This document shows, piece after piece, positions 10,906 to 62,545 of a stretch of 64,000 bases of DNA. Below the pieces are notes generated by a model. The model saw nothing but the letters and a program-made list of their open reading frames with translations. It was not told the origin of the DNA and did no database searches. Numbering within the stretch: the first letter of the stretch is position 1; each line of letters begins with the position of its first letter. Position numbers and translations under genes: made by a program. The DNA is from Anagrus nilaparvatae (taxonomy: Eukaryota > Arthropoda > Insecta > Hymenoptera > Mymaridae), in the NCBI GenBank assembly GCA_022575985.1, contig JAKSXM010000017.1, forward strand, positions 99,124 to 163,123. The letters run 5' to 3'.

Positions 10906-11818
10906 CTTCATTAAAACCACCATCTCTCAGTCTCCGTCGATGTGAATGTCTGCTTGAAATTAATCTACCGCCGGTAAACTTATTAGGATCTAAAATATTT
11001 TCAACAGAAAAAGCAAGTCCTCTTTTGTTAGTTTGCACATTTCCTGCAGTTGTTGTCGTTGTTGAAGTTATATTTCCAGTTGCAACAGAGCAACTTCTTC
11101 CAGGATTCCCAATAATATTTGGATTTAAGCCCACGTGGTAAAATCCACCTGGAGTAGTTGCTATTAATCCAGGAGTTGGACCATTTGATAGGCACGAAAA
11201 TGCATGAATTCTTTGAGCATTTAATGGATGAGCAAACTGTTCTAATGTTTCAGGACACCTCGAAGATGCTGTTAAATCAACTGGGCTACTTGGATTGCTT
11301 TGTTCATCAGGGTTTTGACAAACATCAACTTCAACGTCTACATCAATTTCTTCATCTTCTTGTTTAAATTTACCATTAACTTTTTCATTAGCAATATTAG
11401 CATCTTCTTCCTCTTCTTCCTCATCATCTTCATTTTCTTCTCTTCTAACACTAGTAGAATTTTCTGATCTTTTCATATCTTCTTCTTCAATATCTTCATC
11501 TTCTTCATCAACATCATCTGAATTTTTTTCAGATTTTATTTGTTTAACATCTTCATCCTCATCCAAACTAATTGTATTTATATTTGATTCTTGTAATCTT
11601 CTGTGTAAATGTTCGTACCTAGCAAAAGCTCCTGTTGTTGCTGATCTTACTTGAAGTAAAACACGTGATTGTAATCTATCCGTATGATTATTATTATGTG
11701 ATCTTATTGATATACTATCAATATTATTTTCAACATTCGAATCTTCTATTCTTAATACTGTACCTAATGGTGACATTTTTACTGATGATTTTATTTCTTG
11801 TTGCATTCTTTTCCACAT
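10906..11818 (-). CDS. slou: N-terminal coding exon of an NK1/slouch-type homeobox gene
   Basis: This is the first coding exon of a probable NK1-class homeodomain transcription factor, which would act in the nucleus in muscle and neural patterning. The 304 encoded residues have a low-complexity N-terminal half with two acidic tracts (about residues 86-115 and 127-139) and a Thr-rich stretch near 252-257. The motif GLAFSVENILDPNKFTGG at 267-284 resembles the short conserved motif N-terminal of the homeodomain in NK1/NKX1 proteins. An Arg-rich end follows. The reading frame meets a strong donor (AATGAAG then GTAATT) after one base of codon 305; the reading beyond it into Phe/Ile-rich sequence is intronic. 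The ATG at 11818 is followed by a second at codon 5 with A at -3, which may be the better start. The homeodomain exon lies outside the window, so the gene is partial. Class is inferred from one motif; other NK-type genes are possible. Confidence 0.62.
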
Positions 11819-41338: not shown

Positions 41339-42126
41339 TTATTCTTTGTAACTGCATAACTCAGATACATTCTTAAGATTTTCAATTTCATTTCTGAGTA
41401 ATGGAATGATATTACTATTAAGAAAATTTTTAATACTTAAGTAACCATAAACAGATGCCTTCATGTTTCTTACAAATATTGCAATGTCAAATAATCCTAA
41501 TACAACTTTTTTCTTATCTTGTGCTGCACCTCTCAATGCCTAAATTATAAAAACAGTGCAAAAAATTTTTATTTTCTTTATTAATTTAATTAATTTCATT
41601 AAATACTAACGTCAATTATATAGTCATTTAATTTGTTTAATTCATCACGAGCTTTTATTTCACAAACAATTTTTTTGGCTTTTTCAGTTACTTTTGGAAT
41701 TGATGATTGACATAATTTTTGAAAATCAGTAATTGCAAATTTAACTTGTTTACTAAAACCTTTAACCGAATTTTTACCTAATTTTTTTAATGAACGCCTC
41801 GAAATATAATATTTTTTTAAACAATCACATGCTGTAGTACTGACTTCACAAGTTTTTTTATATTCTTCTTGGAAATTAAAAATCTGAAAAAAATTAATTC
41901 GTAATTTTATTTTTATAAAAGTTAAATTCTCAATTTTTACTTACTTCTTCGGTCAGAAGTTTGATTTCAATGAGATAATTATTTGTATTATTTTCAAACA
42001 AATTTGGACCTGCATTAACACACTAAAAAATATATAAAATTTAATATTTAATAACAATATTTTAAACAAAATTCTTACCACTGCACAAAAAATAATAGTT
42101 AAAAAAAACGTAAATTTAACGTTCAT
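41339..42126 (-). CDS. Gene A: small secreted C-x6-C-x-C family protein
   Basis: Exons: 42079-42126, 41945-42022, 41611-41883, 41339-41539 (48, 78, 273, 201 nt). All three introns (56, 61, 71 bp) have GT/AG ends and are in phase 0. The 199-residue product starts with a hydrophobic signal peptide (MNVKFTFFLTIIFCAV), probably cut near the exon 1/2 junction (CVNAG). Exon 3 carries TCEVSTTACDC and, 36 residues on, another Cys (QKLC). Exon 4 has LRNEIENLK ... ELC. The mature part is Lys-rich and looks helical. I recognise no known family, so function is unknown; export is the only prediction. Gene B is a close paralogue. A TATATAAT stretch lies about 105 bp upstream of the ATG. Confidence 0.82.
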
Positions 42127-42147
42127 GGCTATAAATAAATTGAGCTT

Positions 42148-42595
42148 CAAAATAATGAAAATTAAAAAGAAAATTTAATAAAATGCAAATTATTTATGGA
42201 TTTTTCGTGAAATTCAAGAAAAATAATTATATAAATATAAATTTTTAATAGTTTTTTTTACGAATAATTTGTGTGTACATTTTACATGAAAAATAAATAA
42301 AATAAATAAATAAATAATTTTTTTATAGTTTTTACACCGAAACTTTAAAAAATTAAATTAATTAACTTTGATTATTGATTTATTTTGAGATAAATTTTAA
42401 TCACCAAAACTTATTAACATTGAACTTATTTACTGACTGCTTATTTATTAAAAAAAATCAAGCTTCCTAAAGTACCTTACTGTTAAATAGAAAATTTGTC
42501 TCTAAGCCCGGATTATTTTAAGTCCTTAAATCAAAATTATTCTGAGTCTATTTTCCCATCCCCCTCGATTTCTAGCCCTGCTGGGATACTACGTA
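42148..42595 (-). repeat. Upstream region of gene A, inverted copy at 58480-58930
   Basis: The minus strand from 42595 to 42148 (CCAGCAGGGCTAGAAATCG, GGTACTTTAGGAAGCTTGA, AAATAAGCAGTCAGTAAAT, TGCAAATTATTTATGGATTT) matches the plus strand at 58480-58930 in order. The part far from the gene shares phrases (AGAATAATTTTGATTTAAGG) with the HINE-like family, so the segment probably includes a decayed element. Confidence 0.65.
42227..42234 (-). promoter_or_regulatory. Possible TATA box of gene A
   Basis: TATATAAT on the minus strand lies 101-108 nt before the ATG. Candidate TATA elements sit at a similar distance in genes B and E, which supports all three weakly. Confidence 0.35.
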
Positions 42596-42894
42596 AACCC
42601 CTTATATGTTAAAATATTAAGTATAAAATCTTTTGCTTTTGTCATTTAGTCTCAGGTTGTTATGATTGCTGCCCGTTACTTTTTTTTGTTGGTTCCTGTA
42701 GATATTTTCTTTTTTGGGAATCCAGAGATTTTCAAAAAAAAACATATACCATATTCGTGTTCAAGGACCCACCTTGATGGTACATTTGGGTTCCTTAGAC
42801 CATGTAAAGTGACGAAAAAGTGAGAAGCAAAAAAATTTTTTACTTACCTCATAATTTTTTTTGAGTTTTACGTCTTAGAAAAGCTCAAATTTTT

Positions 42895-43130
42895 TTTTTG
42901 CGTAGGAAGTTGGGAAATGCGTTAAGCATACTGTTTAGCATCCAAACTGAGAGTTATTTGGGACTCAGCTTACCTTGCCTTTACCTACTAAAACTCCACT
43001 CCCTTCCTACCTTATGCGAGCCTATCCCGGGAACGTTTTCACATTATACTTCAAAACAGGTTCAAGGCTATTTAGTTCTATTCGTGAACTCCATCATTTG
43101 ACTTGAATCCAGTGACTCGCCAGTCTGGTT
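42895..43130 (-). other. R1-type 3' UTR-like sequence
   Basis: A G+C-richer block whose minus strand has GTGGAGTTTTAGTAGGTAAA and GAGTCCCAAATAACTC, the kind of sequence found 3' of ORF2 in R1-clade retrotransposons. It may be the 3' UTR of the element that starts at 43418 or a separate fragment; AT-rich DNA and a tetranucleotide repeat lie between them. Confidence 0.35.
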
Positions 43131-43255
43131 GAGGACTCATTCCTTCTTATTACAGTTTCATCTTTATGTGCTGTCATCTTCAATAAAATATATATTAGCT
43201 ACAAAAATATGTCATTTCCCAGTATCGTCAAAAGGAAGCTCAATAAATAAATTCA

Positions 43256-43312
43256 TAATAAATAAATAAATAAATAAATAAATAGATAAATAAAAAATAA
43301 ATAAATATTACC
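43256..43312. repeat. AAAT tetranucleotide microsatellite
   Basis: About twelve AAAT units (AATAAATAAATAAATAAATA) with a few interruptions. On the minus strand it lies shortly after the R1-like coding end. Several R1-clade elements end in or target simple repeats, so it could be the element's tail or target. Confidence 0.7.
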
Positions 43313-43417
43313 CTACCATCTACGATTGATTGCGATATCATGAGTGAGTGCAGGAATGATTGTATGTTAGTGCAACCATACCTGCAGTCATCTGCTTTAC
43401 CGCAATACGTCTCAATA

Positions 43418-46060
43418 TTAGCCTATACCTTGAGTATCAGGTTTTTTGGTGCGGAGAATGTACTCCTTATGCTGGCTAATCTCGGTCCATACTTCTTCAC
43501 TTTGGAGCATCAGGCTATTTGCAGGAGTGATTTGTCAGATTTTAGTTTCTAGTTGAAACTTTTTGACAGCCCATCTTTCGCATTCGAAGAATGTGTGTTA
43601 CTGCGTATCTTATTTTTCAGGACATTATGTATATACAGCGTTATTCATCTTCTGGATTTGTAAAAGGTGGAGCAAAAAAGCCCACGTCGACTTAAAAATT
43701 AGATCAAAAAATAATTGATGCCCCTGTGCCCTCTAGTTATCCAAGTTGATATCTCTCCTATCAACTTTTTGGTCCATTTGCTCTCAGAGTAGTCGGTCCA
43801 ACGGTCCTGCCACTTGATCAGGCTGATCTGGCCTGAAATAGCTTTTGCGCGGTCAAAGCCTTCCTTCTCTTTGTTCAGATAGATATTCTGTCTTTCAAAA
43901 GCCAGCAGATCTATCGGGATTACCCCGGCGATGACTAGAGATGCCTCCAACGACACTGTGCGATAGGCACAGGAGATTCGCAAGGCTCTTTGTCTCTGAA
44001 CACTCGTCAGCTTAGATGAATAAGTGACCTTCTCCACGCAGTCAGCCCATACTTCTGCACCATATAGGAGCATAGAGTGAGTGACTGCGTAAGAAGCTTT
44101 CGCTTTTCAGTTTTAGGTCTATACGTGTTACGCATCAGCCTGCTTAACGCATTAGTGATATTGCCAACCTTCTCTGTGATTCCCAGTACCTGTGCTATGA
44201 AGATCAACTTCGTGTCCAATATCACTCCCGAGTACTTTAACATACATTTCATTTCTATCCTATTCTCCTCTATACATATTGGGATGATGGTATCAATATA
44301 TTTACGGGTGAATAGGACAATCTCGATCTTCGCCATCACAAGCTTTAGGCCGTAGTCATTCATCCAATAATTGACTCCATACATTGCCTGGTTCAGTTTA
44401 TTCCCGGCAATTTTTACATCTTTTGCCGTGATTACTAGAATCAGATTGTCCACGTATCCGACAGTAAAAGTATCTTCGGGCCTTGGGTATCTAAGCACCT
44501 GGTTGTACATAATGTTCCATAGATCTGATCCGAGGACTAATCCTTGAACTGCTCCTGAAGTTACTCTCCACAATCTTGTTCCTTGCGCAATCTCGTAGAT
44601 TGTTTCTCGATCGCTCAGATAACTGCTGATGATTCTTCTCAGATTTTTGGCACCTGGTAGTTCCTTAGCCCCTCCAAAAAATCACACCATCTTGCTGAGT
44701 TGAAGGTATTTTTCACATCAAGGATCACTAGTAAAGTGATTTTTCTTAAATAGTGATAGCCTTTCTGTGCATTCTCAATGGCCTGTACGATACTGCTTAT
44801 GGCATCGATAGTTGACTTCCCTCGGCAAAACCCGTATTGTCGGGGAGAAAGATCTCCTGCAGTTTCTACAGTCCTCAATATCCTTGTTTGCAAAATCTCC
44901 TCATAGTTTTTTCCGGCTGTGTCCAGTAATTCAAGAGGACACTAAAAATTTGTTAGTCTGGGGTCCCCTTTGCCCTTACTGATAAGGACCAATCTGACTT
45001 TCTTCCAGTTTGCTGAAGATACCCGCTCGTACAAAAATATTGTAGATATACAGGATAAGTTGTGGACACTCGTGCGCGGCTATCTTCAGAATCTCAGTAG
45101 GTATTCTATCAGGTCCTGGTGCCTTTCCATTTTCCAGCGAATCTACTGCAGTTAGAAGCTCTTCTACGGTGAAAATCAGGGAAAACCTCCTCGTCATCTT
45201 CTTCTAAGTCATTTTCTTTCTCCCTCTCTGTGTGGGTTATACTTCTATACGTCTAAACTCCTCTTGGTTCATAACGCCACTTGCGGAAAGAGCACCAATT
45301 TTCTTGGTGACTATTTTGTAACCAAGGCCCCATGGGTCATTGTCTACCTCATTACGCAAAGCCATCTCGCATGCTTTCTTGCTTCTCCTAACAGCAAGTG
45401 TCAGGCTTTTCTTTACCTACTTATGCTCTGCCATCAATTCACCAGCGCCCGTTCTGGTTCCTGCACGTGTGGCTCTCATTTTCGTCGTTAAGCTTTCAAT
45501 CCTTAGGCGGGCTATTTCTGCGTTCCACCAGTAGGCTGTTGATCTTCCTTCATGGGTTCTTTTTTTCGGCATGGCTTTGTTACATTCTATTTCAAGCAGC
45601 GTCATGATTTCCGTAAGTAGTATCTCGTCAATATTTCCTGGCCTTATTACCTTTCCCAGGATAGCAGTCTCTCCTTCTCTAAGAATTTTTACCAATATTT
45701 CGCGGTTTAGTCGCTTAGTGTTCCATCCACAACATTTCTTTGCTTCGTCTCTTCGTCTCTGTCGCTGCTCGTCATGCACCTCAAAAGAAATATATTGATG
45801 GTCACTCGCTGATAAGTCCTCCAGAAATTGGAAATTTATAATCCTAGCAGCTAAATCTTTTGTTGCGAGAGATATACCCGGGATGGTCTGTCTATACCCA
45901 GGTCTTTTGAATGTTATGTAGTGTTACCTACATTTTGCACAACTTAGTTGAGCCTGGCAGCCAGATCGAGTATATCCTCTTCTCTTTTATCCATTTCGGG
46001 CATACTCCACTCTACAGATCTCGCGCTGAAATCGTCTGCTATGTGAATTTCACCAATTAT
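43418..46060 (-). pseudogene. R1-clade non-LTR retrotransposon, 5'-truncated and decayed
   Basis: Minus strand, in order: the end of the endonuclease (ADDFSARSVEWSMPE near 46030), linker (STAYWWNAEIARLR), the N-terminal RT region (ENGKAPGPDRIPTEILK; QYGFCRGKSTIDAI; VILDVKNTFNSA), then RT with GAVQGLVLGSDLWN and GYVDNLILV. Next come the R1-type thumb region (LLYGAEVWAD; QRQRALRISCAYRTVS; AGVIPIDLLAFERQ), a Cys-His end (THSFECERW) and a C-terminal tail ending at 43418. The catalytic box is YVDN instead of YADD and there are several frameshifts and stops, so it is dead. It sits between paralogues A and B and is more GC-rich than the host DNA. Confidence 0.87.
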
Positions 46061-47028
46061 TTACTGAATATCCTAAATTCCTTTTAGTTCAATTCTTAAC
46101 TAAAACCTTTCTGCAATAATTCAAGTGGTATTGTTTGATATTGTTATTGCTTTTATTTAAATAAAAGCTGATAATTTCTTGAATAAATAATGTCTTTAAG
46201 ATGTAAATATTACATTTAAACATTCTAAATTAAAAAAATTAAAAATTGTCTTCTTAGCTACCCTCTAAGCCACCCACAGCCAATCAAAGTGAAATTATCT
46301 ATCTAGACGTACATTTTAGTATCTAATAGTGAAATATTTTACCTCAGAGATAAATTTTGCAAGGAAAGAATGGTTTGGTACTGTATTTTATACGATTATA
46401 TAAGAACAAAATTTTAAAATAAAGTGAAATTGAAAAATACCTAAAAAATACGGTTTTTTACCTGAAAAAAAACGGCTATAGCGATGATTTTCATTTTTAC
46501 GGCATCAAACTTGGAAAAATATTTCAAGTTGATCCCATTTTTAACATTTTCAGTAACTCGCACTTCGATTTAAAATTATTTCAAGCCCACCGTGACCGAT
46601 CATGTCCCTTACTACATATATACTGTCCCTTACTACAACTTTTACAACAAATATTTAAACTTAGAAAATTTCTAACAGGTTCAAATAGTACTATAAACTG
46701 AATTTAAAGGCGTATTCTTTAGTAATTTTCCTGCACAATCCAAATTTACTATTTATTTTAACATTTAACTATGCTTTATATAAGAAAAATTCATTTTTTC
46801 CTTTTTTAAGGTCCCAATTTTCAGGAAACTATTTTTTTTTACTGATAAATTGTTCCGTATTTCAAGGAATACTTTAGACAAATACTCTCAAATTCTTGAA
46901 ATTATTTCTTAAATTATTCAATAAAATTTTTTTTAATCCTAAATTTTTGATACTGAATTTTTAAATAACTTTAGCAACATTTTACAAGTACAACCGGGAG
47001 ACTTTGGCGAAGAACCCAGTCGTTGACT
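46061..47028. other. Gene-free spacer between retroelement fragments
   Basis: AT-rich; no exon seen. A diverged unit of the 150-bp repeat (AGCTACCCTCTAAGCCACCC) occurs near 46257. Confidence 0.3.
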
Positions 47029-47275
47029 TTGTCCCAGATTCTTACTGGGTAAACACACTTTAAACCCCCTTGCGCTTCTTTGTCCCAAACCGGAACTCCC
47101 TATTCAGGTATAACTTCAGTTTAGGGCGCGCAGCCTAGGCAACTGACCGCTGCCTTCCCTCCTTACAAGACCGGGAGCGCTCTCTACGATAGAATGAATC
47201 TCTTCTTGTTTCGACAACAGGGTGGCCCTCATGTACTCTGCTACTTTATTCCAGTTTTCAGGACTTCGTAATGTA
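47029..47275 (-). pseudogene. Second R1-like 3' fragment
   Basis: The minus strand reads WNKVAEYMRATLLSKQEEI and ends RLRALN at a stop at 47116. This resembles the C-terminal tail of R1-clade ORF2, and it is followed by a GC-rich 3' UTR-like part (TAAAGTGTGTTTACCCAG). It ends where the 3' flank of gene B begins at 47273. It is independent of the larger element at 43418-46060 because the same C-terminal tail occurs in both. Confidence 0.42.
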
Positions 47276-48006
47276 TTATTTTTATTGGGGATACACTTAA
47301 TTTTATTACGTATTTATTAGAACTTATATTTCAATATAAATGCTCAGTTTGCTCGTGTACAAATATGTGATTATCTACATTCTTACAAACTTTGTGATAA
47401 TAAATTTCCTGTAAAATTAAGTACTTTGTATAAAAACTGCATGCTTATGAATTTCTATATTTATATTAAAAAGCAAATTTATCAAAAAAGTTATTAATTT
47501 TGTACTGATTATATTTTTTGCAGCTATGTGTTATCGTTTTTGAGTTTGATGAATGTGAATAAAGATAAATAAATATACCAAGAAAAAATTATTTTATAAA
47601 TATTGAAAGAAATTGATATTTATGTTTGAAAAATCGAGCTAATTTTTTTTTATTTTATTTTTTGAACTCTCTAAAGAATCCTAAGAAATATTTTTGGTAT
47701 ACTATAATAAAAATGATGTTCTTTTTTGGTGACATATTCTAAGCCAAGTTTATTTTGTTACAAGTGAAATTAAAAAAAAAATTATTTAAATATCCTGCAG
47801 GTGAAATATTAAACCTAGATTTAATTTAGTCAAGATATCTCCTCTATGAATTTTTTGCAAATAAATAAATACATCATTGACTTTAGATTTAAAAAAATAT
47901 TTTTAATATCATAAAATTAATTATACAAAATATTTCCAAACAAATATTTCTAACTTATCTAAATAATAATTTTTTTGTTTAACGAGTAAATTTTTTTCGA
48001 GATTTT
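47273..48006. repeat. 3' flank of gene B, duplicate of 40592-41338
   Basis: Ordered matches to the flank of gene A, with a roughly 50-bp insertion near 47430. The left edge of the match abuts the R1-like fragment and marks the limit of the duplication. Confidence 0.7.
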
Positions 48007-48890
48007 TTATTTCTTGTATCTGCATATCTCAGCTTCATTTTTAAGATTTTCAAATTCATTTTTGAGTAATGGAATGATATTATCATCAAGATATTTTTTA
48101 ATGCTAAATGAATCAGAAACAGATGCCTTCATATTGCTTACAAATATTGCAATGTCAAATAATCCTAATACAATTTTTTTCTTATCTTGTGCTGCCCCTT
48201 TCAATGCCTAAATTATAAAAAAAGGATAAAAAATATTTATTTTGTTTATTAATTTAATTAATTTAATTACTAACCGCAATTATATAATCATTTAATTTTT
48301 TTAATTCATCACGAGCTTTCAAATCACAAACAAATTTTGTGGCTTTTTCAGTTACTTTTGGAATTGATGATTGACATAATTTTTGAAAATCAATAATTGC
48401 ATGTTTAACTTTTTTACTGAAACCTTTGATCGTATTTTTACCTAATTTACTTAATGAATGTATCGAAATGTAACATTTTTTTAAACAATCACATGCTGCG
48501 GCACTGATTTCACAAGTTTTTTTATATTCTTCTTGGAAATTAAAAATCTGAAATAAATTAATTTTAATTTTTAATAAAAATAATTGATTTTTGAGCTAAC
48601 AATTTTTTATTTATGCGATGAATTTTCCAAATTTCGAAAACTTTCGGTCTTCATTATCAAGACTAAAAATTTTATTTTTATAAAAATTATATTTTCATTG
48701 TTTACTTACCTCTTCAATCAGAAGTTTGATTTCATTAAGAGAACTTTTTTTATTCTTTTCGAAAAAATTCGAACCTGCATTTACACACTAAAAATATATA
48801 AAATTTAATATTTAATAACAATATTTTAAACAAAATTCTTACCACTGCACAAAAAATAATAGTTAAAAAAAATGTAAATTTAACTTTCAT
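48007..48890 (-). CDS. Gene B: small secreted C-x6-C-x-C family protein
   Basis: Exons: 48843-48890, 48710-48787, 48275-48547, 48007-48207 (48, 78, 273, 201 nt, the same lengths as gene A). Introns are 55, 162 and 67 bp, phase 0; intron 2 carries an insertion of about 100 bp compared with A. The 199-residue product has the signal peptide MKVKFTFFLTIIFCAV, exon-2 start CVNAGSNFF, TCEISAAACDC in exon 3, a Cys 36 residues on, and LKNEFENLK ... EIC in exon 4. It is clearly the closest paralogue of A. The frame is open upstream of the chosen ATG, but starting there keeps the signal peptide at the N-terminus and matches A. Function unknown. Confidence 0.82.
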
Positions 48891-49005
48891 GGCTATAAAC
48901 AAATTGAGCTTCAATATAATCACTTTTGGTGATTTTTTTCTTTCTAAGAATGCCACTGGAGAATATACTGTATTTAAAATACAACTCAAGGCTTGTTAAA
49001 CATCA

Positions 49006-49014
49006 GCTTATATC
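49006..49014 (-). promoter_or_regulatory. Possible TATA box of gene B
   Basis: GATATAAGC on the minus strand lies 116-124 nt before the ATG of gene B, close to the distance seen for gene E. Confidence 0.3.
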
Positions 49015-49120
49015 ATGTAGATAAACTCTTATAAGAAAATAATTAATTGCTAAAATTATTTATAAGAATGTAAGTTCAATATAATTTTGAAGAACATAGA
49101 AATACTATCAACTGCAATAA

Positions 49121-49633
49121 TCTCTATATATTATAAAGTTATAAACGCTGCCGCCGCTGCCGCTGACGTCGCCGCTTTCGCCTGAGCCCTTTGGGCCAAT
49201 GTGGTCTTTTTGGGCCAAAATGGTCCTTTTGGACCAATGTGGTCCTTTTGGGCCAAAATGAACCTTTTGGGCCAATGTGGTCCTTTTGGGCCAAAATGGA
49301 CCTTTTGGGCCAATGTGGTCCTTTTGGGCCAATGTGGACGTTTTGGGCCAGTGTGGTCCTTTTGGGCTAATGTGGTTCTTTTGGGTCACAGTGGTCCTTT
49401 TGGGCCAATGTGATCCTTTTGGGCCATTGCGGTTTTTTCTATATTTAACAGAGTAAAACTTTAAACTTTAATAAAGTTGTATTACGATACCAAATCTACA
49501 ACCACTGTCAAGAATCAGTTGTTTCAAAAAGAATAAGGTACGCCTTGCAAGTGATTAAAAATATACTATCGCAATACTTCAATCACTCTGCGGGGGTTGG
49601 CACGCGTAGCGCGCAGGGGGCGGAGCCCCCTAG
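49121..49633 (+). mobile_element. Non-autonomous Helitron (513 bp)
   Basis: The 5' end is TCTCTATATATTATAAAG and the 3' end is a perfect hairpin GGGGGC-GGA-GCCCCC followed at once by TAG, so the terminus reads CTAG. The base before is A and the base after is T, the usual Helitron A/T target. There is no TIR and no target duplication. The interior has a GC-rich trinucleotide part (GCTGCCGCCGCTGCCGCTGA) and a 19-bp minisatellite. No Rep/helicase coding, so it needs an autonomous partner. Confidence 0.75.
49190..49430 (+). repeat. 19-bp minisatellite inside the Helitron
   Basis: About 12-13 units alternating between GGGCCAATGTGGTCCTTTT and GGGCCAAAATGGACCTTTT. Frames through it give Lys-Gly-Pro-like repeated peptides in more than one phase, which is a by-product and not a gene. 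Confidence 0.85.
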
Positions 49634-50018
49634 TTATTAATAAATTTAATTTAATTATAGCTGATTTAAAATTCAATTACATTTTTTGGTGAATTATAAT
49701 GATTGAATAGTAATTGCAGGTGTAGGGTTTCAAGTCTGAAAACTTCGAACTATATTTTATGCAGTAATTTGAAATATAGTTTAACCCCCCCCCCCTCCAC
49801 TTACTTTAAAAAAGTATATATTCTATGGAATAGGGAAATTGTTTTCTGATATTTCATATTCCCTTGTGGATCATACTTCAAATACAACCTACGATAGAAA
49901 TCATATCCAACAATTTGACAATATAAAAAAAAAAATAAAGAACTGTAGGTCAAACTTCTCTAAGCAAGCTATAACTATAAGCAGGTTATAACCTTCAGAA
50001 TTTTGCACACAAAAAAAA

Positions 50019-50882
50019 CTAATAAATGTATATCTGCAATTATTTTAAAAGTGCTACTTAATTCGAGCCTGGAATCGTAATTCTTTTTTTTGAGGGCACA
50101 TCGGATCGACCCTTGTTTTCGTGAAGTTTGAACCCTCAGGAAGTCAAAAAAAGTCGTGAACAAGGATTCCGTGATAGGTGCCAAACAGATTTTTTCACTT
50201 TTGTGTCAAAAACCGTGTTTTTCGTATCTGAGCTACCCCAAATTGAAAAAAGCCTGTTTCTGAACTTTAAATATGCATTACTCACTTGATTTTCATCGTA
50301 AAATATTAATTTTTTTTTTTAATCGATTAATTTTTCGCTGGCAATTCATTTCTTTAAGAATTTCTTTAAGCCTTTGAAAACTGTAAGTAGCAAGTTAGTT
50401 TACTTAACACAGTTTTTGACCTAAAAATTAAAATTTGGTCAATAAAAATGATTTTTTTCTTAAAGAAATGCATGGCCAGGGAAAAATTAATTGATTTAAA
50501 AAAAAAAAATTATTATTTTACGACCAAAATCAAGCGAGTAATGCATGCTTAAAGTTCAGAAACAGGCTTATTTCAATAAAATTTCAATCTTTTTTAAGAC
50601 GAATTTGAGCAAAATCTAAAATTGACGATAACTTGGCTAATTTTCATCGTAAAAAGATAAGTTTTTTTTTTCTGGAGTGGTTTTTCCCTGGCAATCATAT
50701 TTTCTTATCTATTTTTTAAAATTTTATTTACCTAAAAAGTTATTTTGAAAATTTGTGATAGCTCAGATACGAAAAACACGGTTTATGACATAAAAATGAT
50801 AAAATCTTTTCGGCAAAAAAAAATTACGATTACAGGCTCAAATTAAGTAGCACTTTTAAAATAATTGCTCATATATACTTAC
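50019..50882. mobile_element. Foldback element, arms over 300 bp, beside a dead exon 1
   Basis: The left arm (AATTATTTTAAAAGTGCTAC near 50038, AACCGTGTTTTTCGTATCTG near 50210) is mirrored by the right arm (CAGATACGAAAAACACGGTT near 50763, GTAGCACTTTTAAAATAATT to about 50870). Arms run roughly 50019-50400 and 50470-50880 with a short loop. The right end lies within a few bases of the donor of the remnant exon at 50883-50936, so the element probably replaced or separated the rest of that gene copy. Confidence 0.65.
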
Positions 50883-50936
50883 CAAAGTACAACTACAAAA
50901 AATAATGACAAAAGATAAAACAAAAATTAAATTCAC
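50883..50936 (-). pseudogene. Remnant exon 1 of the secreted family
   Basis: Eighteen codons of signal-peptide character (NLIFVLSFVIIFCSCTL) end at a GTAAGT donor, resembling exon 1 of gene C. The first codon is GTG instead of ATG, and no in-frame ATG precedes it. No exon 2 follows; a foldback element does. Its upstream flank matches that of the remnant at 51553-51603 (TTTCTTGGTATTACAG, AACAAGAA, AAAATATTTCGCAATC). Confidence 0.6.
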
Positions 50937-51552
50937 GCTGATTAAATTTACTAGCGAAGATCTCAAGTATTTCTTGGTATTACAGCAAGACCAAAAGAGG
51001 AAAATTTTAAATTTAGGAGTTTGTAGTTATATACTAAAATTTGAATAAAATAAATGAAAAATAACAAGAATATCAAAATATTTCGCAATCCGTCTGCAAA
51101 ATATTTTGATAACAAGCCACAGAGGAAATTAAAAATTCATATATTTATTTACGTAAATCTGATAAATAACTGAGAAATGCATTAGTTTACCTTACTTGGT
51201 TTTTTTTTCAGAAGTTTTCTGCTTACTGAGCAAAAATGAGATATTTCCAAAACAAATAATCCTATACCCAAAGATTATGCTAACCAAATTCAAAATCAGA
51301 AAATATTTTCAATATAAATGGATTTTTTTTTTTAATGTTTCAATTTTTTCACAAGGTTATATTAAAAAAGAGAACATTATTTTGCATACTCATTATTACA
51401 AGAATAATAATAGTTCTTGTAAAAAGTTCCATTATTTTCTATGTAATTATATTCCAAAATTATAATCTATATAAATCTTATTCAGAAAAATTAAAAACAG
51501 AAATAAAAATAGAAATTCAGGCTAGTGTAAATGAAAATAATAATGTACAAAC

Positions 51553-51603
51553 CACTGCTACACAAAAAATAATAATTAAAGACGTTAAAAAAATTATACT
51601 CAT
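51553..51603 (-). pseudogene. Second remnant exon 1 of the secreted family
   Basis: ATG plus 16 codons (MSIIFLTSLIIIFCVAV) end at GTTTGT, a weak donor compared with GTAAGA in the intact genes. No family exon 2, 3 or 4 is visible in the 900 bp that follow on this strand. The upstream region is a duplicate of that at 50937-51130. It could be a rarely used exon, but decay is more likely. Confidence 0.55.
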
Positions 51604-52503
51604 ATTAATTTAATTAACTTTGAGGATCTCTTATTTATTTCTTGGTATTACAGTGAGGCTAAAAGAGAATTTTTTATTTTAACATTTATGAGTATGTTGT
51701 AGTTACTCATCAAATTTTTGATAAAAGAAATCAAAAATAACAAGAACGCCAAAATATTTCGCAATCAACAGTAGCAGAAAGTGTTGATAAGTAGACCCGA
51801 GATGAAATTAAAAGATGCTTATACAATTTATAACTAATTTTATTTATAAGAGGAGACTACCAAACAGGGTTGCTTAAATTTTGTGGCAAATTTGGTAGCC
51901 ACGATTGAGGTTTATACTGTAAAGTGTCCCAAATTCAGTATTTTTTCCTTGTTAATATAATGTGTAAATGAAAAAAAAAACTTTTATTTTGAATGTTCAG
52001 TTAAAAAATGTGAAATGTAAATAATGTCACTCCAGTCCAAGATTTATCTTTGTAGACTTTAAAAGCTCCAAGTATTACGCCTAAAAATTAAATTACTGAT
52101 AAGTGACGGATATTTTCATAATTTTTATCTCAACTAGCTGTCTTCTAAATTACCATGAAACTATTATATTTTATAAAATTTTATTAAAAATTGTTAAAAA
52201 TTCTCTAAGCTACATAAACCAATAAACATTATGTTTATGATTATGGCTATCAAAATTCGTTTATTTCTATATCTTTATAAATCTAATTTGAAGGTCGTTT
52301 ACTGAACTTTTGATAAAATATAAAATTATTTTGTAAATAAAATCATATGAACATTTTTAATTAATTGTATATAAAAAATAGAATTTTTAGATATTTTAAA
52401 ATTCACAAATTGAAAAAATAAAGCAAATAATTGTTAGATCAGAAATCAAATATTTTTATTTCGTGATTGATTAATAATAAATAAGTAATAATTACAAAAG
52501 AAT
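51604..52503. other. Intergenic spacer between remnants and gene C
   Basis: Contains the duplicated upstream flank (to about 51850) and AT-rich DNA. The minus-strand AAATAAAAATA at about 52451-52462 is the likely poly(A) signal of gene C. Confidence 0.35.
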
Positions 52504-53795
52504 TTAATTAACCATTTTTTTAGTCATGGTTTTTCTAATTCTTAAATAATTTGAAAAATTTTCAATTGGTGTTTTATTTTTAATACATAAATTAATTTCA
52601 TTTTTTAATTTTACTAAATTATTTTCTAAAGATTTAATTGATATATTTGATAAATAATCTAAAATGTCAAAATCATCAAGAAAAATATCAATTATATTTT
52701 TTAATGAACCTAATTTTGTTAAAAAACCTAACGCTATTGATTTTTTTTTATTTGAAAGAATTTTTCTCATTGCCTGAAAATGAAAAAGAGTTTTTATTAA
52801 ATAAAAATAAAAATTTGATTTTTAATTGAAATTTACCATTAGTAAAATTTCTAAATCTTTTTTTAATTTTCTTCTACTTAATTGATGGCAGATATTTTTA
52901 ACGTAACTGCAACTGCTTTTTAAAGTTTTGTAAATTACTTTAATGTTATGAATTCCATATTTAATTTTTGAAGTCGCATCGTTGAGTACTTCACGACTTA
53001 AAGTGTTTAAAAATCCTAAAAAAATATGCGATTTTTTTCTACATTCACAAACCGTAGGGTTAATTACGCAGTGATCATGACAATTTTCATCAAACGTAAA
53101 GTACTGTAAATAAAATTAAATTGAATGTTAATTAAATCCCAGCTTAATTATTATTTTTAATTTACTTACATCTTGTAAAATATTTCTAAAAGCTAAGAAA
53201 CTGTTTCCTTCTATATCTTTGTTAGGTCTTTTTGATTTTGATCGCGGACTTGCTTTAATGCTCTGAAAAATTAAATTTTTAATAAGTGCCAAGGAAATGA
53301 GGTATAACATGGAGCTATTTCACCTGTAGTAAATGAATGTGTTAACACAAAAGTCAACTTTTATCACCGAAATCAAAAGATAAAATGAAATAGCTAAAGG
53401 AAAAACAGTACAAAAACAGTTGGGTTGGATCGTTTTTACCCGATAAGTTTTAAAGGGCTGCAGGTTCTAATTTTTAATAAGAAACGCTGGTTTTACGATA
53501 TGAAAAAACAAAAAAACAAAAAAAATATTCCCGATAATTAACGAAAAATTTTCGTAAATTCGGATATATACCCCACTACACCCTATGATAAACATTGCAT
53601 AAAAGACGTTAGTAATATATTTTTTGAATATCAACTTTGTTTCTAGGACCCATCCAATGTCTGTGAGTAAAAAGTAAATAATTGTTTTGGCTAATGATGA
53701 AAAATATAGAACGTGAGAAACATATTTTTGACGAAACTAATTCTTACCACTGCACAAAAGATAACACTCAAACTCAGAATAAAAATTATATTCAT
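52504..53795 (-). CDS. Gene C: small secreted C-x6-C-x-C family protein
   Basis: Exons: 53748-53795, 53170-53262, 52837-53103, 52504-52773 (48, 93, 267, 270 nt). Introns are 485, 66 and 63 bp, all GT/AG and phase 0. The 225-residue product has the signal peptide MNIIFILSLSVIFCAV, a basic exon-2 segment (SPRSKSKRPNKD), HCVINPTVCEC in exon 3 and the next Cys 43 residues on (KSSC), with extra Cys nearby. Exon 4 has KKKSIALGFLTKLGSL and LKNEINLC. It is closest to gene E (shared exon 3 and exon 4 blocks) and forms a subfamily with it. Lys-rich, probably helical; function unknown. An AATAAA lies about 45 bp after the stop. Confidence 0.82.
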
Positions 53796-54700
53796 TTTTT
53801 TTAGGTGCAAATTATTCAAAAATTTAAAAAAAACACTAATTCCCGTTTAGCTTTAATCTGTCTAAACTAAAAAAACTTCTGATGAATTAAATTTTTAGTA
53901 AAAAAAAAACTGTAAAATTAAATAAATATTATGTTTAAAACTGTAGATAATGAAAAAAGTAATCAAAAATTTAAGATTTTGGTTATAATTTTTTAAAAAT
54001 ATAAATAAATTCTAAGATTTCTTTCATAGTATTTATTAAATCTAATTTTTAATTTTATCATTTTATACTATTTTGAAATTTTATAATTATATTATTTTTC
54101 TAATTGCTAGAAGAATATGAAATATTTTTATTATTACTTCAGGGAATTCCAATTTCATACGACTAAATTTTTGGTTTTTATTATTAATGAAAATCTCGCA
54201 ATTAAAAAATGGAATAAACTGAATGGATAAGACAACTTGCAATTTGTATTTTCTTCGGGCGAACGACTTACCTTTGTGCCCAAATTTTGAAACTTATCTT
54301 CGTACTCTCAGTACAAGGTTCATGTTTACAGGATTGATAATTTGTAATACCACTCAATTTTTTCTATATTTCAAAAAATAAGTAGATAAGATAGACCAGA
54401 AAAAAATTTATTTCGTAGTAATAATTGTACTACTCTTTTATTATCTTAATGATAAGAATACATTTCAGTGGCGTAATTTTATTGTCAGTATCATAGCATT
54501 CGAGATTATTCATTTGAACTTAAGTGGTGAAATTGTATACTTAATAAAACCAGTGTTAAAATTGAATTTCTTTAACTGTTTCCAATTTCATACCAGCTTT
54601 ACTTTAGTACACTAGCAGGAGATAAACTAATTACAAATTAAATAAATTTATAAAAGTAATTGTTTCTTTAATTCAATTAAGTATTTACAAATTTTATTTT
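53796..54700. other. Intergenic spacer between genes C and D
   Basis: AT-rich; no exon or repeat recognised. It holds the promoter of C on the minus strand, where no clear TATA box stands out, and the 3' end of D. An AATAAA on the minus strand at 54693-54698 directly follows the stop of D. Confidence 0.35.
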
Positions 54701-55671
54701 TTAAATGCCCCGTGTTTTAATAGGCCATAGTTTAATATTATTTAAATCAAACGTTGGAATTTTTTGTTTTGTGTAATTCTTAGCAAATTTCACAGCATCT
54801 GTTGCTTTTTGTTTTGAATAATCCTTAGTAAATTTTAAAGCATTCATTGTAGCTCGAGCAATTTTTCTTAGTTTACCGAATTTGGGTTTTGAATTTTCAA
54901 TGCATTTTTCAATTTTAATCTTTGTTCTTTCAAACTCGTTTCTTAAAATTTGTATGAAATTATTTGAAATATATCCTGGAATGTCAATTATTTCAGATAA
55001 CGAAGTTACTAAGTTTAACAGTTGACCTAAGTTATCAAACGTGTTAACAACGATTGCTTGTCCATTTTGTCTAAACATTGATTTTGATTTCTGAAAAAAG
55101 TAATAATTTCATTACTTTCTATGGTTCTGGTTTGATTGTTTGAAAAACTTACATTGACTAAATTTTTCGCTAAACTTTTGACTTGTTTTAAATTTCTAGG
55201 GCATTTCATTTTCAAATAATTGTAACAATTTTTGATATTTCTACATTGTTCTTTTAACTGATCTGCTACTTTGGTAGCTTTTGAAGAAATAATACTCGCT
55301 AAATCAGTGCCAATGTTTTTTAGAGAATTTCTAGCTTTGAATGATTTATTCAAACAATCACAAGTTTCTGGATATTTTTTGCAGGTCTCTATTTGCTTAT
55401 TATAAAGTTCAAAAATCTGAAATTTTTTAGTTATAAATAAAATTTGTAATTTCTTACATTAAATTAATTTTCTTACATCTTTGAATAACTCTTTTGATTC
55501 ATCAAAAACATTTATTCTAGAATTTTCTTCGTATTTAATTGGCCTGCCTTCAGTCCTCTAAGAATAAAAATTATTTCACTTCGTAACAATCACACAATAA
55601 AATAAATTTCTTGAATTACTCACCAGAAAAAAAAATATGAGGCTTATAAACAAATATAAAATTAAAATCAT
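54701..55671 (-). CDS. Gene D: small secreted C-x6-C-x-C family protein, longest member
   Basis: Exons: 55624-55671, 55477-55557, 55153-55416, 54701-55090 (48, 81, 264, 390 nt). Introns are 66, 60 and 62 bp, phase 0. The 260-residue product starts MILILYLFISLIFFFL, continues RTEGRPIKYEE, and has TCKKYPETCDC with the next Cys 36 residues on (EQC) as in A and B. Exon 4 keeps LRNEFERTK ... EKC. It then adds a unique C-terminal tail with an internal duplication (ALKFTKDYSKQKATD followed by AVKFAKNYTKQKIPT), ending in LWPIKTRGI. No family outside the window is recognised. Confidence 0.82.
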
Positions 55672-55875
55672 TTCTTAAATTATACAACCAAAACGTACGT
55701 CTCTGTAATCAGAATTGTGGTATCTCAGCTTTTAAAAACTTTGTAAAAATAAGTAATAATAACAATTGTAATAAATTTTATTTAAGATTTAATAAAAATT
55801 AAGTAAATAAAGATAATAAAACAAAAAAATCATAAATCGAAACTCTAGATTTTGTGTTGGCATTACTTACACTAT

Positions 55876-56200
55876 TAACATGGAACATGTTTATAGGGAG
55901 GGGTACTCTTGATACCTAAAAATCAAGGGGGGAGTCAAATATGTCCGATTCAAGGGGGGGGGGTCAAATGGGACTTAAAATAATTTCAATTTAGGGACTT
56001 AGAAAATATCTGGGGTTAGGGACTTAGAATAAAACAGGTTTGTGGACTTCGAATAATATAGATTTAGGGACCCAGAATAATACGCTTTTAGAGAATCAGA
56101 ATGGGTTAGATTTAGAATCTTAATATCTAGTAAAGGTGATAATTACAAATTATAAAAATAAAAAATTGTATTGTAATGGTCTGGAGGTGAGTTTTTTCGA
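55876..56200 (+). mobile_element. HINE-like repeat family, copy 6
   Basis: TTAACATGGAACATGTTTAT, AGGGAGGGGTAC, G runs with GTCAAATATGTCC, then a series of GGGACTTAGAATAA-like phrases (period about 25-30 bp), TAGAATCTTAATATCTAGTAA and TGATAATTACAAATT. It matches copy 3 in reverse but lacks the hairpin end. It lies between genes D and E. Confidence 0.6.
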
Positions 56201-56505
56201 TAAGTTTACGAATGCTACTACTTAGGTTAGGTTTGGTTCCGGGGGCTAAATCATTCTACTTATCCGGAAGTAGCCTTGGTTTCTTTTCAAGATTAACACA
56301 TTATTTGTTAGTCCATAAAATTATTTTGTAAACAAAATTATATCAAAATTTTTAATTATCTGTACATAAAAAAAAGTAAATGATTTTTTAAGATTCATAA
56401 AAATTTTTTATTGATTTCTTTATTGATTATTAAAAATATTAAGTAATTAATTACTGGTCAGTAAATTCAATTTATTTTATAACAAAAGAATTTAATAAAT
56501 TATTT

Positions 56506-57900
56506 TTATTTCGCTGATTTTCTAATTCTTGAGTAATCTGAAAAATTTTCAATTGGCATTTTATTTTTAATACATAAATTAATTTCAGTTTTTAAATTTA
56601 TTAAATTATTTTCTAACGATTTAATTGATACATTTGATAAATAACTTAATAAATCAAAATTATCAAGACAAATATCAAGTAATATATTTAATGAACCTAA
56701 TTTTGTTAAAAAACCTAATGCTATTGATTTTTTTTTATTTAAAAGAATATTTTTTATATCCTAAAAATAAAAAAAGAAGTATAAATAAACGATTAAAAAA
56801 AATTAAATTTGAAAATATTAAAAATTACCAATAATACAGTTTCTAACTGTTTTTTTAATTTAATCATTGTTAAATCTGTATTTTTAAGTTTACCGCAACT
56901 ATTTTTAAAATTTTGATAAAATTTTTCAATATTATCAATTCCATCTTCAAGTTTTGAAGTTGCGTCGTTTAGTAATTCTTGACTCAAAGTATTTAAAAGT
57001 CCTAAAAAAACATTTGATTTATTTCTACATTCACAAATTGTAGGATTAACAACGCAGTGATCATGAATATTTTCGTCAAATTTAAAGTACTGCAAAAAAA
57101 AAATTAAATTTAATGTAGATTGATTATCAGCTTAATTATTAGTTTAATTTGATTTTAATTATTATATAAAATTTACTTACTTCTTCTAAAACATCTCTAA
57201 AAGCCCAAAAACTATTTGTAACTTCATTTATTTTGGATTTTTCTGAACCTGCTCTAGTGATCTGAAAAAAAGTAAGCTTTATTCATTTCAAAATAATTTT
57301 TCCTAATATTATTACCTTTCTCTAAAATTAATTCCAAAAATTAGTTCTCTTATTTAAAGCCAATTTCGAAGCTAATTTATTTTTTTTTAAGTTTTACTAT
57401 TTGGAGTGCCAATTTCGTACAAAAAATTTTATTAGAATTGAAATGAGTTTTTGATGTTTGATAAAAAGAGGCTCAAGGTGTCAAATTCACAATAATTAAG
57501 GAAAGCCTTCGTAATTGATTTAATAGAGATTAAACTAATCCCTAGTACCATCGAGATAATTATAGTACCTGTAGAGAGCACTCCTATCTCAGTGCGTGTT
57601 AAAATATTTGCAGATGATGAGTACCCAGCAAATCTAGGCGCGAGTGATCATGTTAAAAATTTAATTTTTTCGCTTATTAAGTCGACGATATTTTTTGCCC
57701 ACTTAGGTGCACAAAGAGTCTAAAATAAGTGCAGAAAATACCAATTTTACGTATGAATTTTACATCAGTGAAAAATTCAAAGTTCATGTTGAGTTTACAA
57801 ATTACGTGTTAAAAATTAAAGTATTAAAAAAAAATTAAAATTGTATCCTCACCAATATATTTGATGTTATAAACAAAAATAAAATTTTTATAAAATTCAT
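56506..57900 (-). CDS. Gene E: small secreted C-x6-C-x-C family protein
   Basis: Exons: 57853-57900, 57181-57261, 56829-57089, 56506-56760 (48, 81, 261, 255 nt). Introns are 591, 91 and 68 bp, phase 0. The 214-residue product begins MNFIKILFLFITSNIL, then ITRAGSEKSK; cleavage is likely near TRA. Exon 3 starts YFKFDENIHDHC, almost as in gene C, and has HCVVNPTICEC with the next Cys 43 residues on. Exon 4 repeats KKKSIALGFLTKLGSL and TEINLC. A TATATATAAG box lies about 110 bp upstream of the ATG and an AATAAA about 30 bp after the stop. Function unknown. Confidence 0.83.
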
Positions 57901-58008
57901 AATTTATTGAATTTTTGTCAATTTTTTAAAATATTAAAGTAACGATAACTTTAAATTCTTTACACTACTTAATTTTACAATAAAATAATTAAATAAAATA
58001 AAATAATT

Positions 58009-58018
58009 CTTATATATA
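58009..58018 (-). promoter_or_regulatory. Likely TATA box of gene E
   Basis: TATATATAAG on the minus strand, 109-118 nt before the ATG. It is the best-formed TATA element of the family and would place transcription start around 57980-57990. Confidence 0.45.
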
Positions 58019-58246
58019 GGCTTAAAATTAATGCGTTAAGGAGGCTCTGTAGTGTACTCGCTAGTCAATTGAAAAGCTATTAAAAATTTTTATTAATGTT
58101 TATTTTTCTTAATTTATGAGAAATATGACTATGAAAAATCTTATTTTAATTAATATTAATAAAATAACAAATATTCTCTTCATTTACGAATTAGCGATGA
58201 CAAAAAGTTTACTTTGTATTAGGAATTAACGTGAGTAAAGCAACAT

Positions 58247-58479: not shown

Positions 58480-58930
58480 CCAGCAGGGCTGGAAATCGAG
58501 AGGGATTGGAAAATAGAATCAGAATAATTTTGATTTAAGGGCTTGTTTCGAGACTTATTTTCAATTTAACAATAAGGTACTTTAGGAAGCTTGAATTTTT
58601 CAAATAAATAAGCAGTCAGTAATTAAGTTCAATGTTTCTAGTTTTTTGAGTACATATATTTAAACTCGTTATTAGTTTTGGTGGTTATCTCAAAATAAAA
58701 GAATAATAAAAATTTATTTTACATTTTAAAGTTTTGTGTAAAAACTATGAAAAATTTATTTATATATTTATTTTATTTATTTTTCGTGTAAAATCTATAC
58801 ACACAAATTATTCCTAAAAATACGATTAAAAATTAATATTTTATATAATTAGTTTTTTGAATTTCACGAAAAATCTATAAATAATTTGCATTTTATTAAA
58901 TTGTGTTTTTAATTTTCATGAAACATGTAT
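58480..58930 (+). repeat. Inverted orphan copy of gene A's upstream region
   Basis: It matches 42595 back to 42148 in reverse orientation and stops about 20 bp short of where the ATG would be. No signal-peptide exon follows on the plus strand. This is a truncated, inverted duplicate of the family's 5' flank and marks the right edge of the cluster. Confidence 0.65.
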
Positions 58931-60262: not shown

Positions 60263-62545
60263 AACATGGAACATGTTTATAGGGAGGGGGTACTTCAAAA
60301 CTGGAAAATTAGGGGGGGGGGGTCAAATATGTCCTTTTTAAGGGGGGGTCAAATTTGTCCTTTTTAAGGGGGGGGGGGGGGTCAAATTTGTCATTTTTAA
60401 GGGGGGGGGGGGGGGTCAAATGGGACTTAGAATATTTTCGATTTAGGGACCTTTGGTGCAGAAGTACTTAGGGAGCATTGGTGCAGAAGTACCTAGGGAC
60501 CTATGGTGAAGAAGCCCCTAAAGACCTTTGGTACAGAAGTACATAGAGAGCATTGGTGCAGGAGTCCCTAAAGACCTTTGGTGCAGAAGTACCTATGGTG
60601 CAGAAGTCCCTAAAGACCTTTGGTGCAGAAGTACTTAGGGAGCATTGCTGCAGAAGTCCCTAAAGACCTTTGGTGCAAAAGCACCTAAAGACCTTTGGTG
60701 CAGAAGTACTTAGGGAGCATTGCTGCAGAAGTCCCTAAAGACCTTTGGAGCAGAAGTACTTAGGAAGCATTGCTGCAGAAGTCCCTAAAGACCTTTGGTG
60801 CAGAAGCCCCTAAAGACCTTTGGTACAGAAGTACTTAGAGAGCATTGGTGCAGGAGTCGCTAAAGACCTTTGGTGCAGAAGTACCTAGGGACCTATGGTG
60901 CAGAAGTCTCTAAAGACCTTTGGTGCAGAAGTACTAAGGAAGCATTGGTGTAGAAGTACCTAGGGACCTATGGTGCAGAAGTCCCTAAAGACCTTTGGTG
61001 CAGAAGTACTTAGGGAGCATTGGTGCAGAAGTCCCTAAAGACCTTTGGTGCAGAAGTACCTAAAAACTTTTGGTGCAGAAGTACTTAGGAAGCATTGGTG
61101 TAGAAGTACCTAGGGACCTATGGTGCAGAAGTCCCTAAAGACCTTTGGTGCAGAAGTACCTAGGGTGCAGAAGTCTCTAAAGACCTTTGGTGCAGAAGTA
61201 CTTAGGAAGCATTGGTGTAGAAGTACCTAGGGACCTATGGTGAAGAAGCCCCTAAAGACCTTTGGTACAGAAGTACTTAGAGAGCATTGGTGCAGGAGTC
61301 GCTAAAGACCTTTGGTGCAGAAGTACTTAGGGAGCATTGATGCAGAAGTCCCTAAAGACCTTTGGAGCAGAAGTACTTAGGAAGCATTGGTGTAGAAGTA
61401 CCTAGGGACCTATGGTGAAGAAGCCCCTAAAGACCTTTGGTACAGAAGTACTTAGAGAGCATTGGTGCAGGAGTCGCTAAAGACCTTTGGTGCAGAAGTA
61501 CCTAGGGACCTATGGTGCAGAAGTCTCTAAAGACCTTTGGTGCAGAAGTACTAAGGAAGCATTGGTGTAGAAGTACCTAGGGACCTATGGTGCAGAAGTC
61601 CCTAAAGACCTTTGGTGCAGAAGTACTTAGGGAGCATTGGTGCAGAAGTCCCTAAAGACCTTTGGTGCAGAAGTACCTAAAAACTTTTGGTGCAGAAGTA
61701 CTTAGGAAGCATTGGTGTAGAAGTACCTAGGGACCTATGGTGCAGAAGTCCCTAAAGACCTTTGGTGCAGAAGTACCTAGGGTGCAGAAGTCTCTAAAGA
61801 CCTTTGGTGCAGAAGTACTTAGGAAGCATTGGTGTAGAAGTACCTAGGGAACTATGGTGCAGAAGTCCCTAAAGACCTTTGGTGCAGAAGTACTTAGGGA
61901 GCATTGCTGCAGAAGTCCCTAAAGACCTTTGGTGCAGAAGTACTTAGGGAGCATTGCTGCAGAAGTCCCTAAAGACCTTTGGTGCAGAAGTACCTAAAGA
62001 CCTTTGGTGCAGAAGTACCTAAAAACCTTTGGTGCAGAAGTACTTAGGAAGCATTGTTGTAGAAGTACCTAGGGACCTATGGTGCAGAAGTCCCTAAAGA
62101 CCTTTAGTGCAGAAGTACTTAGGGAGCATTGGTGCAGAAGTCCCTAAAGACCTTTGGGGCAGAAGTACCTAGGGTGCAGAAGTCTCTAAAGACCTTTGGT
62201 GTAGAAGTACCTAGGGAGCATTGGTTCAGAAGTACCTAGGGACCTATGGTACAGAAGTCCCTAAAGACCTTTGGGGCAGAAGTACCTAGGGTGCAGAAGT
62301 CTCTAAAGACCTTTGGTGCAGAAGTACCTAGGGAGCATTGGTTCAGAAGTACCTAGGGACCTATGGTGCAGAAGTACTTAGGGACCATTGGTGCAGAAGT
62401 CTCTAAAGAACTTTAGTGCAGAAATACTTGGATATAAATATTGATATTATGAACAGAATAGATACTTTATTATCAGTGTTAGTTATTAGTGAACATGTTC
62501 CATGCTCGTTGGTTGTGTAGTTACACAAACCGGTCATAAGTTATT
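60263..62545 (+). mobile_element. HINE-like repeat family, copy 7, enlarged by a minisatellite
   Basis: The left end is TTAACATGGAACATGTTTAT and GGGAGGGGG, followed by four G-run units (GTCAAATTTGTCCTTTTTAA). The right end is GAACATGTTCCATGCTCGTT, the hairpin TTGTGTAGTTACACAA and ACCGGTCATAAG. In the place of the usual GGGACTTAGAATAA series stands a 2-kb tandem array (60447-62430). Both ends agree with the other copies, so the array grew inside the element. Confidence 0.68.
60447..62430 (+). repeat. 2-kb minisatellite, about 25-bp unit in 50-bp pairs
   Basis: The basic unit is TTTGGTGCAGAAGTACCTA plus about six bases (AAGACC or GGGAGC), roughly 75-80 units. Units mostly alternate (CTTTGGTGCAGAAGTACTTA / GCATTGGTGCAGAAGTCCCT), giving a 50-bp pair. 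A block of about 400 bp starting near 60838 recurs almost unchanged 617 bp further on (GCAGGAGTCGC at 60850 and 61467), a sign of unequal exchange. The repeat unit has the spacing of the GGGACTTAG phrases in the parent element. No spacers of unique sequence. Confidence 0.92.

Follow-up and report, generated by a model that had tools for sequence, protein, structure and literature searches.

The stretch of DNA analysed here (the window) is the terminal 64 kb of contig C166 (163,123 bases; window and contig end together) in a genome of 393 contigs and 488.7 Mb, and it carries a tandem row of five related genes, called A, B, D, E and F below, whose predicted proteins begin with signal-type N-termini. 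The gene models are predictions, made by hand and guided by homology; when they were rebuilt from the raw sequence by script, the coordinates and the description that an earlier note on this DNA had given, five minus-strand genes of four exons each, proved to be correct. The genes and their exons, with lengths in nucleotides (nt) or amino acids (aa), are as follows:

42126-41339, minus strand: gene A, predicted protein 199 aa, no internal stop
42079..42126, minus strand: gene A exon 1, 48 nt, encoding the beginning and the core of the predicted signal peptide
41945..42022, minus strand: gene A exon 2
41611..41883, minus strand: gene A exon 3, with C-x6-C-D-C
41339..41539, minus strand: gene A exon 4 with stop
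48890-48007, minus strand: gene B, predicted protein 199 aa, no internal stop
48843..48890, minus strand: gene B exon 1, 48 nt
48710..48787, minus strand: gene B exon 2
48275..48547, minus strand: gene B exon 3, with C-x6-C-D-C
48007..48207, minus strand: gene B exon 4 with stop
53795-52504, minus strand: gene D, predicted protein 225 aa, no internal stop
53748..53795, minus strand: gene D exon 1, 48 nt
53170..53262, minus strand: gene D exon 2
52837..53103, minus strand: gene D exon 3, with C-x6-C-E-C
52504..52773, minus strand: gene D exon 4 with stop
55671-54701, minus strand: gene E, predicted protein 260 aa, no internal stop
55624..55671, minus strand: gene E exon 1, 48 nt
55477..55557, minus strand: gene E exon 2
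55153..55416, minus strand: gene E exon 3, with C-x6-C-D-C
54701..55090, minus strand: gene E exon 4 with stop, the longest C-terminus among the five
57900-56506, minus strand: gene F, predicted protein 214 aa, no internal stop
57853..57900, minus strand: gene F exon 1, 48 nt
57181..57261, minus strand: gene F exon 2
56829..57089, minus strand: gene F exon 3, with C-x6-C-E-C
56506..56760, minus strand: gene F exon 4 with stop

As the note had reported, exon 1 is 48 nt long in all five genes, and their 15 introns are all GT/AG and in phase 0; every exon length is divisible by three. The note had exon 1 encode the signal peptide; by prediction it carries the start and the hydrophobic core, and the probable cleavage site, judged by eye, falls a few codons into exon 2. 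Genes A and B have exons of equal length (48/78/273/201 nt), whereas their introns all differ (56/55, 61/162 and 71/67 nt); between D and F the exon lengths differ by multiples of three (48/48, 93/81, 267/261 and 270/255 nt) and the intron lengths do not (485/591, 66/91 and 63/68 nt). Because exon lengths are kept, or shift by threes, while intron lengths change, these gene structures are not the product of chance. About 210 nt upstream of A (42363-42155, minus strand) match, at 89%, an inverted copy beyond F (58711-58919, plus strand), and the corresponding stretch upstream of B has no match to that copy; since A's upstream sequence recurs beyond F and B's does not, the 5' flank of A may carry a repeat insertion.

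Five further members lie outside the window, E2, G, H, I and J, on contigs C254, C220 and C289. On C254 (4.28 Mb) all five window genes recur at 98.3-99.9% identity, and we read this contig as the other haplotype; on it the five genes are followed by E2, a near copy of E, and by G. Gene J is on C289, with a match also on C254; C220 holds H and I, whose matches on C254 are some 446 kb away from the first cluster. By these models the family comprises ten genes or more, arranged as two clusters with about 446 kb between them. Searches of the genome with half of the ten proteins (A, D, E, G and J) brought up no further convincing member among the best candidates, which are scored one exon at a time; since only these are scored, the count of ten is a minimum. 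Weak matches on C342, C62, C290, C1 and C195, with E values from 0.02 to 6, were not counted as members, nor were two of them (L020 and L024) that reached E 0.002 by tblastn against a database consisting of a handful of chosen loci, which is too small for that value to carry much weight.

The architecture found in the window extends in most respects to the whole family: all ten genes have four exons and models that are free of internal stops, and all 30 introns are GT/AG and in phase 0. The members differ in two features that the earlier note had called fixed. Exon 1 is 48 nt long in eight of the ten genes and 45 nt in H and I (two of the five genes outside the window), and C-x6-C-[DE]-C, which occurs once per gene, in exon 3, in each of the window genes, is found in A, B, D, E, E2 and F and missing from G, H, I and J (four of the five outside the window), which have in common a Cys-Leu-Ala stretch amid other cysteines. 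The pattern of kept exon lengths recurs in E and E2, whose exons are equal in length while one intron is clearly different (60 and 73 nt), and in H and I, where exons 1-3 are equal in length, the introns are very different and the last exon of H extends to a later stop. Are the genes with and without the cysteine motif nevertheless one family? When a profile of A, B, D, E and F (A1) was compared by hhalign with one of J, G, I and H (A4), the probability was 96.6 and the E value 5.7e-10 over 185 columns; part of the score comes from the common signal region, but the alignment continues through exon 4. On this comparison the two subfamilies are homologous.

Replacing and silent changes were compared between paralogues by Nei-Gojobori counts. 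The ratio of the two, pN/pS, is 0.61 for A/B (p 0.051), 0.61 for D/F (p 0.003) and 0.27 for E/E2 (p 0.0002), and it is 0.52 for G/I and 0.49 for G/H (p below 1e-7); among the four close paralogue pairs only H/I exceeds 1, at 1.40 (p 0.36). From these counts we take the reading frames to be coding and the constraint on them to be real but weak. Coding nucleotide identity is 96% for E/E2 and 88% for A/B, which is the mark of recent duplication; tandem duplication is how the family expands. When the two haplotypes are compared, none of the five genes differs in exons 1 and 2, while in exons 3 and 4 of A, D and E 21 codons differ, 14 of them by replacing changes (replacing/silent: A 6/2, D 5/1, E 3/4; B has none, and F was left out of the count because it is frameshifted). 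Likewise, exon 1 of H and I is identical and exon 3 is 85.9% identical. In these comparisons divergence is concentrated in the later exons. The note's picture of a tandem, fast-diverging family with signal-type N-termini is borne out by the ten genes and their paralogue comparisons.

The frameshift lies in exon 4 of the C254 allele of F; the window allele is intact. It could be taken as a sign that these are decaying or non-functional copies, or even chance open frames in AT-rich DNA, where many spurious matches arise, and the H/I ratio, which does not differ from 1, and the exons of A and B, which are no better kept than their introns (below), would fit such a view. We regard it as very improbable, as ten four-exon models lack internal stops, exon lengths are conserved, pN/pS is significantly below 1 for D/F, E/E2, G/H and G/I, and a homologue of exon 3 exists outside this assembly (below). 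Two exon-1-like pieces in the window (51603-51558 and 50934-50881, both minus strand) have no further exons and are not regarded as lost members, their matches not rising above the window background.

Gene F has a composite structure. Its match to G is 80% identical over 447 aligned positions; it starts 139 nt before exon 1, takes in that exon and ends after 252 nt of intron 1. The two genes have no other match at E 1e-4. The stretch concerned is:

57601..58039, minus strand: gene F 5' module, 139 nt upstream, exon 1 and the first 252 nt of intron 1; match to G

The match of F to D, on the other hand, begins within exon 2 and extends beyond the stop, with 83% identity over 48 positions and then 77% over 857; nothing upstream of it matches at E 1e-4, and D and G have no match to each other at that threshold. 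Exon 1 of F is 92% identical to that of G and 52% identical to that of D. Judged by these alignments, F consists of a G-like 5' end followed by a D-like body. The simplest account would be that a G-like and a D-like gene recombined within intron 1 or close to it; if F's 5' end were instead the ancestral one, D's having been replaced, the altered gene would be D and not F. Because intron 1 is in phase 0, exon 1 would be portable without a change of frame, and it could act as a cassette through which a body takes on the promoter and signal of another gene.

Does the family belong to anything already described? Pfam matches were listed up to E 10 for all ten proteins, HMMER's filters dropping most matches above about 0.1, and no family passed its cut-off for any of them, in agreement with the note's statement that no known domain could be matched. 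The best of the sub-threshold matches, ENTH for G (E 0.0039, 17.7 bits against a cut-off of 24) and Tektin for E (E 0.0069, 15.6 bits against 34.3), are taken as chance matches to helices. A profile search of PDB with A1 gave ten distinct sequences, the best at E 0.049, most of them under the name sc-apCC, presumably designed coiled coils, and one with A4 gave a single unrelated protein at E 0.077; both results are taken to reflect composition only. In IMG/VR, 91 and 248 stretches matched the search patterns and none was a relative by tblastn at E 1e-3, so that relatives on viral contigs, by which a polydnavirus-borne or other viral origin was to be judged, were not found there. Among 5.8 billion predicted proteins, A1 (the five whole proteins) drew 6828 candidates, none of which scored at E 10, and the exon 3 profile (A2) drew 246 candidates and no match; we take these protein collections to be mainly prokaryotic and metagenomic, so absence from them says little about insects.

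The third profile used on the same proteins, A4 (G, H, I and J), drew 5273 candidates and one match, P0001, at E 4.5e-35. P0001 is a 120-aa protein from a 1,030-base ENA contig and is 68% identical to gene I over 103 aa. It appears to be a reading of exon 3 that continues at its ends into what look like the adjoining splice signals, and its source is either another organism or a copy absent from this assembly. Because this external homologue exists, the family probably extends beyond this genome; the note's lineage-specific effector family stays a proposal. The titles and abstracts of the literature matches listed contain no description of such a family. As far as these searches reach, it is an unnamed, apparently insect family, undescribed but of a familiar kind.

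The predicted mature proteins are about 180-240 aa long, basic, and contain 6-9 cysteines. All ten N-termini are hydrophobic (mean Kyte-Doolittle value 1.8-2.6 over residues 2-17), and from residue 21 on lysine plus arginine exceed aspartate plus glutamate in every protein, most narrowly in F (27 against 25) and most widely in J (47 against 21). AlphaFold was run on single-exon alignments, exon 3 and exon 4 separately, with E first and A, B, D and F aligned to it; exon 3 of E was modelled as helix with pLDDT 69.8 and pTM 0.32, and exon 4 as helix with pLDDT 56.4 and pTM 0.28. From these properties and models we infer that the mature proteins are extracellular and mostly helical, and they are probably disulphide-linked.

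Insect odorant-binding (OBP) and chemosensory (CSP) proteins are secreted and helical, have several cysteines and often lie in tandem clusters. The OBP signature is six cysteines with C2-x3-C3 spacing, and that of the CSP (OS-D) proteins is four cysteines in the arrangement C-x6-8-C-x(about 18)-C-x2-C. The present family resembles both in its tandem clusters, several cysteines, signal-type N-termini and predicted helix; it differs in that its proteins are longer and that cysteine spacing and Pfam profiles do not match. The six CxC-type genes have C-x6-C-x-C and the other four have other spacings, which is not the OBP pattern; C-x3-C pairs occur in B (63, 67), D (55, 59) and H (98, 102), are not conserved, and lack the rest of that pattern. 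The first CSP spacing fits the six CxC-type genes and the remainder does not. Neither OBP (PF01395) nor OS-D is among the Pfam matches listed for the ten proteins. A known secreted helical family (OBP, CSP, the 27-kDa haemolymph glycoprotein and so on) could still have diverged beyond the recognition of profiles, as the helical single-exon models, the several cysteines in all ten proteins and the limited reach of search profiles built from only five and four sequences would allow. With cysteine spacing unlike the OBP or CSP rules, and with no Pfam match above cut-off, we think such an ancestry distinctly doubtful.

The basic composition of all ten proteins, together with their signal-type N-termini, would also suit proteins that work within the insect itself, in the haemolymph or as immune effectors, as basic, cysteine-linked proteins of defence or transport. 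This is rather unlikely in our judgement: the Pfam matches listed for the ten include no antimicrobial, OBP, CSP or haemolymph family, and about 180-240 aa is long for a peptide antibiotic. Reproductive proteins (seminal fluid, or egg or ovary secretions) are likewise short, secreted, tandem, orphan and fast-changing, so they would show the same signs in sequence as effectors that act on another organism; that they are what we see here is possible, if on the unlikely side.

The explanation that we favour as a whole is of a growing tandem family of extracellular, helical proteins, with F as a chimera and with an effector role that is a guess, and our confidence in it is evenly divided. As effectors the proteins would have a fast-changing partner and work on it outside the cells of the animal that makes them; the earlier note proposed a venom, teratocyte or saliva role, should the animal be a parasite. 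Several observations weigh against this explanation. Positive selection is not demonstrated, given the p value of H/I and the ratios below 1 for A/B, D/F and E/E2, and the 14 replacing codons of 21 that differ between haplotypes are fewer than the roughly 80% expected from site counts without selection. Between A and B identity is 88% in the exons, 100, 84 and 90% in the three introns and 92% in the 3' flank; because the exons are no better kept than introns and flank, constraint is weak, and it could be that some copies are drifting. As for the signs of loss, the frameshift in F may come from misassembly of an A-rich run, and the exon-1-like remnants are possibly chance. The confidence of the helical models is low and they cover single exons only. 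Finally, reproductive or haemolymph proteins would look the same in sequence.

The feature of the family that we judge most interesting is the shared promoter-signal cassette. In its strongest form the proposal is that these are undescribed helical secreted effectors, that recombination in intron 1 swaps their 45-48 nt exon and promoter from one subfamily to the other, and that bodies thereby move between expression programmes; we consider this unlikely. If it were true, a swap would switch the expression programme of effector bodies in one step (for example, between venom gland and larval secretion). Expression of F like that of G rather than that of D would show promoter-exon swapping directly. 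Orphan secreted families are one source of host-manipulating and reproductive proteins, and for many such families no relatives are described. With its ten genes, its clearly paired paralogues, its two haplotypes and its one chimera, this family would be a small and tractable case for studying shifts in the place of expression.

Two hymenopteran venom systems offer comparisons. The report on the ectatotoxins of the green-head ant (PMC12465672) describes clustered loci, some of them pseudogenised, with high replacing variation, and genes of two or three exons in which the first encodes the signal, the propeptide and the start of the mature peptide and is more conserved than later exons; it leaves exon shuffling as an open question. 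Compared by description and not by sequence, the present family is alike in its clustering, the predicted signal on the first exon, the steadier first exon, some apparently broken loci and high replacing variation. It differs in having four exons, the first of them 45-48 nt long and ending before the predicted signal is complete, and, where shuffling is an open question for the ectatotoxins, in one 5' swap seen in gene F. The VIDs of Asobara japonica, according to their description (PMC12822402), are a duplicated DUF4803 family with functional specialisation in parasitoid venom. Ours is likewise a duplicated family, but DUF4803 (PF16061) is not among the Pfam matches listed for any of the ten proteins.

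Several other features lie in the window. Between A and B is a broken reverse transcriptase (44010-44941, minus strand, perhaps extending over 43702-45923) with PF00078 in two open frames; the open frames neighbouring it gave no Pfam match. An open frame at 36592-37350 (plus strand), which we take to be copia-like, has a zinc knuckle and a Pol_BBD domain. Two tandem repeats are present, a 25-base unit in about 81 copies at 60444-62427, with G+C content higher than its surroundings, and a 19-base unit in 12.5 copies at 49190-49426, where open frames arise by repetition only. At 10820-11830 (minus strand) is a 337-codon open frame with an acidic stretch, whose sole Pfam match is Nop14 (19.4 bits against a cut-off of 34.9); its end presumably resembles an NK-type homeobox gene.

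A COI query matched 19 places in the genome. The matches on C18 (two places) and on C62 (74 Mb, one place) are equal at 207.2 bits; provided that C62 carries a recent nuclear copy, this equality links C18 with the main genome. C146 carries an arthropod-like COI different from that of C18, and on C244 and C264 COI is split over about 2-3 kb in what we assume to be a fungus-like arrangement. The reading of the animal as an insect draws on the earlier note's view and on these COI likenesses. Given two arthropod-like COIs and a split, fungus-like one, DNA of more than one organism may be present in the sample. Identities to Drosophila and Apis references are 68.9 and 67.5% for the C18 COI and 74.9 and 72.2% for the C146 COI, values that place neither.

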